64,000 bases of DNA from Planctomycetaceae bacterium (GTDB lineage Bacteria; Planctomycetota; Phycisphaerae; UBA1845; UTPLA1), in NCBI GenBank assembly GCA_006969385.1, contig CP030884.1:1612001-1676000 (forward strand). Reading direction: 5' to 3'. Position numbers and translations under genes: made by a program. Shown here one piece after another: positions 59,591 to 60,841 of the stretch. Each line of letters opens with the position of its first letter. The stretch's first letter is position 1. The notes under the pieces are model-generated. The model was not told the origin of the DNA. It saw only the letters and a list, made by a program, of their open reading frames with translations, and did no database searches.

Positions 59591-60062
59591 CGCACAGTTT
59601 TACGTCTTGCAAATGAGTTACTTCCAAATCGGACTTGCGACGATCATTTAGACAAACGAATAAATATGAGGTAACTGCTGGAAGGCTAGGCGGCGTGGGC
59701 AAGCTGTGGAGCATAGGTAAGATGAGAAGTCTTGGAAGTCGCGAATTCTTTAATGCAATTTAAGTCGCGCGCCCTAGCCAGTATTGCGTTTATGCCATAT
59801 AACCCGGATGTACGTACTGGGAAAACGCCACGGCCTGTGGTTTTTTCTTCGCAAATTGGATCGTTAACTCGTAACCACTGTAGGTTGCAAATTGGATAAG
59901 ACGGCTGCGCTATCGAAAAAACGAGTACGCTTCAGGACAATGTCACAGGGCCGCGTGATCGCGAGCCCTTTTTTTGTTGCGTATCCCACCTGCCATCGAT
60001 AGGGCGCATAGCATTTAGAGATTAGCGCCAGCCTGTTAGACAGCAACAGGGGGTAAACCAAC
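59591..60062. other. 472-base intergenic region, no gene supported
   Basis: Between agmatinase and the regulator gene. No clear repeat, tRNA or terminator; AT-richer than the genes on either side and likely to include the regulator's promoter. Confidence 0.45.
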
Positions 60063-60782
60063 ATGGCAATTGACAAAACACGAAATGTATTTGTGGTCGA
60101 TCCTGATAAGTCGACTCGGACTTGGCTCACCAACCTTCTCAAGTCGATCAACATCAAGCCGAAGTTTTTCAACAACGGCGACGACTTGCTAAAAGCATTG
60201 AAGCCGAAGACCTCGGGATGCGTGATTTGCGAGGTGCGCCTTGCGGGTATGAGCGGCCCGAAGCTGATTGAAGAGCTACACGCGCAGCGCTACCCGGTCG
60301 TGTGCTTGGTTTTAACCAGTCACGGTGACGTGCCGACGACGGTCGAGGCGATGAAGGCTGGTGCCGAAAACGTTTTCGATAAGAAGCCGGCAGCGCAGCC
60401 GTTCCTCGACGCCGTGAACGATGCGGTCGATAAGAGCAAGACCGAGGTGTCGAAGGTCGGTCGCCGCATCGAAGCCGTAAAAATGTTGGAGCGGTTGACC
60501 GATCGCGAAAAAGAAGTGCTGATGTACCTCGTCAACGGTTACCACAACCGCGGCATCGCGAAGTTGCTGAAGATTCGCGAGCGCACGATCGAAGCGCACC
60601 GTGCGGGTATTATGCGAAAGCTGGAAGCGCGATCGATCGTGGATGTCATTCGCATGGCGTTCTTGTCCGGCATGGGTGACGAAGTACCGCCGCCGCCGCC
60701 GCGACTGGTTGAAAAGCCGCGCCGCGCCATGAAGAAGTACACCAAGAAAAAGAAGCGACGCGGTCGACCGGCGTTGCGCTAA
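60063..60782 (+). CDS. FixJ-like response regulator with Glu at the phospho-acceptor position and AT-hook-like tail
   Basis: 239 residues. Receiver domain (8-125): VFVVDPDKS has the acidic pair (Asp13), VLTSHGD the conserved Thr85, FDKKPAA the Lys108. Yet the acceptor strand reads GCVICEVRLAGMSG with Glu57 where FixJ-type proteins have Asp. A LuxR/FixJ helix-turn-helix follows (about 148-205: LTDREKEVLMYLVNGYHNRG with IAKLLKIRERTIEAHRAGIM). A Pro-rich hinge leads to KKYTKKKKRRGRPALR, which contains the RGRP core of AT-hooks. No histidine kinase is adjacent. It probably binds DNA in a constitutively active-like state. Confidence 0.9.
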   Translation: MAIDKTRNVFVVDPDKSTRTWLTNLLKSINIKPKFFNNGDDLLKALKPKTSGCVICEVRLAGMSGPKLIEELHAQRYPVVCLVLTSHGDVPTTVEAMKAGAENVFDKKPAAQPFLDAVNDAVDKSKTEVSKVGRRIEAVKMLERLTDREKEVLMYLVNGYHNRGIAKLLKIRERTIEAHRAGIMRKLEARSIVDVIRMAFLSGMGDEVPPPPPRLVEKPRRAMKKYTKKKKRRGRPALR

Positions 60783-60805
60783 ACGTCCGTCCACCATCTG
60801 GAATC

Positions 60806-60841
60806 AAAAAAGCACCGCCGGTTTGGCGGTGCTTTTTTTTG
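60806..60841 (+). terminator. Rho-independent terminator after the regulator gene
   Basis: AAGCACCGCC/GGCGGTGCTT stem with loop GGTTT and a T-run of eight. A-runs on the other side suggest it also ends the convergent hslV transcript. Confidence 0.92.

Follow-up and report, generated by a model that had tools for sequence, protein, structure and literature searches.

The window analysed here, a stretch of 64,000 nucleotides from the single 5.48 Mb contig of a planctomycete genome (G000), encodes an orphan regulator of FixJ/NarL type which, with a probability that we put at roughly 0.8, acts as a pseudo-receiver protein, binding DNA without phosphorylation and answering to its own abundance, to a partner or to a ligand. 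An earlier note on this DNA had proposed a regulator independent of phosphorylation, and the proposal now appears better supported than it was then: both the acceptor aspartate and the Mg2+-binding aspartate are gone, the loss is seen in a paralog as well as in the syntenic ortholog, and the regulator is an orphan. The features on which the argument rests are the following.

59948-59975, plus strand: terminator-like hairpin, GGGCCGCG-TGAT-CGCGAGCCC, then seven T; 87 bases upstream of the regulator start and about 360 after speB
60063-60782, plus strand: regulator open reading frame of 239 residues, orphan FixJ/NarL type with a degenerate (pseudo-) receiver
60087-60413, plus strand: receiver domain, residues 9-117 (Response_reg, Pfam PF00072; 62.9 bits, E = 3.8e-17)
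60102-60104, plus strand: codon of Pro14, replacing the second Asp of the pocket
60231-60233, plus strand: codon of Glu57, replacing the phospho-accepting Asp
60492-60659, plus strand: GerE/LuxR-type helix-turn-helix, residues 144-199 (Pfam PF00196; 65.4 bits, E = 3.4e-18)
60672-60779, plus strand: Pro-rich hinge and basic tail, residues 204-239 (MGDEVPPPPPRLVEKPRRAMKKYTKKKKRRGRPALR), net charge +11, RGRP at 233-236
60806-60838, no strand assigned: terminator-like hairpin between the regulator and the convergent hslV, a 14-nt perfect inverted repeat flanked by A/T on both sides (terminator scan)

Receiver pocket and gene neighbourhood

The reading frame had been given correctly in its coordinates, start codon, length and sequence, and it was rightly called a FixJ-type regulator: the product has an N-terminal receiver followed by a GerE/LuxR helix-turn-helix, both above the Pfam cut-offs. 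By sequence, the nearest solved structures are StyR of Pseudomonas (1yio, E = 1e-31) and FixJ of Bradyrhizobium (5xso, E = 8e-31), which are also the two best by fold; the AlphaFold2 model, with a mean pLDDT of 89.8 and two confident domains, matches full-length FixJ with TM scores of 0.76/0.88. Modelling of the receiver, suggested in the earlier note, predicts a normal and intact fold. The protein does not belong to the FixJ equivalog of nitrogen-fixation regulators, scoring 152.3 bits against NCBIfam NF006900, for which the curated cut-off is 255. An antisense reading frame of 161 residues overlapping the regulator (60312-60797, minus strand) was rejected as a gene on the basis of its substitution pattern, with dN/dS above 4.

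The receiver retains Asp13, Asp15, Thr85 and one Lys of the pocket. The assignments of Asp13, Glu57 and Thr85 in the earlier note were right, while two changes were absent from it: Pro14 replaces Asp14, a second loss besides that of the acceptor, and Ala61 stands where Pro is usual, four residues after the acceptor. Its Lys108 stands by phmmer comparison with FixJ, in which the KP pair corresponds to Lys108-Pro109, but not by ungapped alignment, in which the conserved residue is Lys107 and Lys108 falls at a near-invariant Pro position (Pro in 127 of 133 homologs); the identity of the conserved lysine, 107 or 108, appears ambiguous from these alignments. In true receivers the second Asp of the acidic pair binds Mg2+ directly (PMC12632262). 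FixJ and StyR, unlike the regulator, are true receivers of this kind, with an Asp acceptor and the acidic pair, whereas Glu57 and Pro14 place our protein outside the phospho-accepting group; it is recognised as a receiver and has no acceptor Asp, which is how aspartate-less or pseudo-receivers are defined (PMC12632262, PMC4395418). Because the acceptor and the Mg2+-holding Asp are both absent, the regulator would be phosphorylated neither by a histidine kinase nor by small phosphodonors.

No sensor kinase gene adjoins the regulator, and the earlier statement that none lies nearby is borne out: although the genome encodes 36 HATPase_c domains, the nearest is 47 kb away. In the sister species (G001) and the third congener (G002), the contig of the regulator gene carries no HATPase_c, and for a Glu-type gene of another genome, G283, the distance on the contig is 71 kb. 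In contrast, a HATPase_c domain ends no more than about 50 bases from the start of the matches to Asp-type FixJ homologs in G000 (2816437), G001 (C217) and G283 (C2:177018). The contrast between orphan Glu-type genes and kinase-adjoining Asp-type genes is small but consistent.

Regarding the flanking DNA, the upstream hairpin is conserved together with its T run in the sister species, and partial conservation of the surrounding block starts at about 59770. The hairpin could either end a small transcript or act as a leader attenuator. Searched against Rfam to E = 1, the same upstream region gave no match, and it folded no better than shuffled sequences; a sigma-70-like promoter was looked for and none was found. 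A direct repeat, GCAAATTGGAT (59851 and 59887), was considered as an operator and rejected, being unconserved in the sister species.

Homologs, synteny and selection

How exceptional is this pocket? Our homolog set comprises 133 distinct Planctomycetota proteins from sampled genomes, related genomes being counted separately, and has Asp at the acceptor position in 124 cases, Glu in eight and Gly in one. Asp14, present in 122 of the 132 homologs with a residue at that position, is absent in all nine proteins that lack Asp57 and is kept in 122 of the 123 that have both Asp57 and a residue at position 14 (Fisher p = 4e-13, a value that is too small since relatedness is uncorrected). On a tree of 71 rows, built without the columns of Asp57 and Asp14, the non-Asp label requires a minimum of four changes and is carried by the genus of the window with its paralog, by a clade of family f23 (SH-aLRT 99) and by two single genes. 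The exact number of origins is uncertain, for the starred branches of the tree alone force no more than one, and the paralog (L002) and L083 form long branches. The losses of the acceptor and of the Mg2+ ligand go together and probably arose several times, a recurrence which argues that Glu at this position marks lost phospho-chemistry, not a simple 'on' mutation.

Some of the individual homologs can be described separately. The paralog (L002:1462-2118, or G000:C1:993512-994174) is another orphan FixJ-like regulator of Glu type encoded by G000, with the motifs DSD and CECRLAG, and no strong ortholog of it was found in G001 or G002. Class-level relatives in family f23 (L114, L119 and L132) form a separate Glu-type FixJ-like clade, in which the pocket is DGD or DHD and the acceptor strand carries LEVR; the loss of phospho-chemistry here is possibly convergent. 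In a FixJ-like protein of G013 (L083:447-1157), Gly occupies the acceptor position as well as that of the second pocket Asp, and the conserved Thr and Lys are both replaced by Ala; this receiver is fully degenerate.

Within the genus, the ortholog of G002 is syntenic, lying between the arginase-family gene speB and hslV (speB-RR-hslV) as in the window; this arrangement was not found within 1.5 kb of hslV in the 13 other genomes of the family that have hslV. The G002 protein is 41% identical to ours and has a DAD pocket, an acceptor strand reading ILEVRLPGMTG, and a recognition helix that nearly matches that of the window (RERTxEAHRAGIMRKL). Because this syntenic ortholog keeps Glu and lacks Asp14, the two changes would most simply be ancestral in the genus. 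It ends in ...MRSFA, without the basic tail, and all the other Glu-type homologs found are also tail-less; therefore, the coupling of Glu57 and RGRP, which the earlier note had treated as one combination, is refuted as a conserved trait. The tail would have been either gained in the lineage of G000 and G001 or lost in G002.

The sister species, which shares its contig with the Phycisphaerae MAG Co_bin.211 (JAUIHO010000053.1), was also the single locus retrieved when a named genome collection was searched for further relatives. Its regulator is identical to that of G000 in 238 of 239 residues, while 67 codons differ, 66 of them synonymously and one (L22I) nonsynonymously, giving dN 0.0037, dS 0.56 and dN/dS 0.0065, the lowest among the shared neighbouring genes except for a small ferredoxin (dN = 0). 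The Glu57 codon itself is GAG in the window and GAA in the sister species. Synonymous and nonsynonymous changes number 36 and 1 in the receiver, 17 and 0 in the helix-turn-helix, and 7 and 0 in the tail (P = 7e-5 if neutral). Hence, all three parts are constrained, and purifying selection acts on the tail in both species that carry it. As a side observation on tempo, the regulator is 99.6% identical to that of one congener and 41% to that of the other (L040 and L012), when the corresponding values are 96/73% for speB and 98/82% for hslV; this suggests a burst of fast divergence followed by strong constraint, close to freezing.

The basic tail

The C-terminal RGRP in a basic context after a Pro-rich hinge, noticed earlier, is present: a run of five Pro precedes an end that reads KKKKRRGRPALR, and Lys or Arg account for 12 of the last 20 residues. 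AlphaFold2 confidence is low here (pLDDT about 61-67), and the tail is presumably disordered. Among the homologs found, it occurs in the two sister species only, and a pattern search of the G000 genome returned no other in-frame terminal RRGRP tail; DNA that could encode RGRP is not enriched in this genome, the degenerate pattern giving 28 hits against 25 in the reversed control.

AT-hooks are described as a GRP core set among basic residues (PMC11354804), and KKKKRRGRPALR agrees with this loose definition of an (R)GRP core with basic flanks, being strongly basic before the core and having a single Arg after it. At E values up to 10, Pfam AT_hook does not match the tail, although HMMER filters may drop such short matches, and among the papers listed in a literature search none evidently dealt with an AT-hook in a bacterial response regulator. 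Could the tail then be simply a nonspecific polycation with general affinity for DNA or RNA, or for a partner, in which RGRP is incidental? We regard this as only a little short of an even bet. The density of Lys and Arg, the missing Pfam match, the ALR that follows RGRP where a basic run might stand, and the absence of the tail elsewhere all agree with it; against it, RGRP is unchanged between the sister species even though the last 20 residues have just four synonymous changes (P = 0.004), and the C-terminal RGRP of mycobacterial WhiB7 binds the minor groove of A-tracts (PMC10245118). Minor-groove binding by the tail is plausible, and the choice between it and a plain polycation role is about even. 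A more specific proposal is that a kinase-free FixJ-type regulator gained an AT-hook, so that the helix-turn-helix reads the major groove while the RGRP tail clamps the adjacent AT-rich minor groove, tail affinity replacing phosphorylation-driven dimerisation in this lineage; in this full form it seems unlikely to us. The tail could also serve contacts with RNA, membrane or protein, or turnover, in place of DNA binding.

Proposed control without phosphorylation

In our preferred reading of a pseudo-receiver regulator, the receiver would most likely be a fixed or otherwise controlled module for dimerisation or docking, the helix-turn-helix would bind the promoters of a putative regulon without phosphorylation, and output would depend on how much protein is present, on the binding of a partner or on some other input. 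In the species of the window and its sister, the +11 tail with RGRP, probably disordered, would add DNA affinity and may possibly grip AT-rich minor groove next to the site bound by the helix-turn-helix. Some room for a conventional conformational switch is left by the kept Thr85 and Lys and by the normal fold predicted for the receiver.

A narrower version of this explanation, which was the mechanism favoured in the earlier note, holds that Glu57 mimics the phosphorylated residue, pairing with Thr85 and Lys107 or Lys108 and thereby holding an active dimer that is constitutively on. It agrees with the retention of Thr85 and Lys, with the prevalence of Glu among the substitutes (eight of nine) and with the partial activation of many response regulators by Asp-to-Glu changes (PMC12632262). 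However, such a change alone is often insufficient, and the natural Glu of ChxR can be replaced by Asp or Ala without abolishing DNA binding (PMC4395418); in our protein, moreover, the Mg2+ ligand is also gone and the Lys-Pro motif is altered. We consider this version possible, with the odds leaning against it. That the regulator is still controlled by phosphorylation, through a distant kinase and either Glu57 or a residue near it, is very improbable: the kept Asp13, Asp15, Thr85 and Lys and the many HATPase_c domains of the genome would allow it, but the protein has neither the acceptor nor the residue that binds Mg2+ directly, and these losses are coupled across homologs. Docking alone, without phosphotransfer, could still give a distant kinase control of the protein. 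Least probable of all is a receiver decaying after kinase loss and merely carrying the DNA-binding domain, for although the gene is an orphan with a degenerate pocket and has diverged from G002 far more than speB and hslV, the very strong constraint on the receiver between the sister species and its intact predicted fold largely refute such decay.

The pseudo-receiver reading has well-known counterparts. Among aspartate-less receivers Glu is the commonest substitute (26%), the first acidic residue is mostly kept, the second usually lost and Lys mostly kept (PMC4395418, PMC12632262). The pocket of our regulator is typical of this pseudo-receiver class (PsR, or atypical response regulators), with Glu at the acceptor, the first acidic residue kept, the second lost, and Thr and Lys kept, in an orphan protein; unlike the class, it bears a basic RGRP tail. 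Extremely conserved orphan atypical FixJ/NarL regulators are likewise known: according to the available part of one study (PMC4125116), BldM and WhiI of Streptomyces have the same architecture, WhiI also misses one of the Asp pair and BldM is also extremely conserved across species, whereas BldM keeps the conserved pocket and WhiI is without the Lys; that part of the source mentions no RGRP tail for either. ChxR of Chlamydia trachomatis has a natural Glu at the acceptor and works without phosphorylation (PMC3960148, PMC4395418). It differs in having an OmpR/PhoB winged helix, not a FixJ/NarL domain. We know of no comparable basic tail in ChxR. For the tail, the nearest likeness is WhiB7 of Mycobacterium, a bacterial transcription factor whose C-terminal AT-hook, with RGRP, binds AT-rich DNA (PMC10245118), although this is an Fe-S WhiB-like protein without a receiver or such a helix-turn-helix. 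Our regulator is comparable to ChxR, BldM and WhiI as an orphan aspartate-less or pseudo-receiver protein that is probably independent of phosphorylation; the selected RGRP tail sets it apart, as does the existence of a syntenic ortholog without that tail.

In evolutionary terms, some relatives in the family of this regulator have the acceptor Asp and others lack it, and a single genus contains both tailed and tail-less orthologs. If the tail does substitute for phosphorylation, this would be a simple route by which a two-component regulator becomes a constitutive DNA-binding protein.
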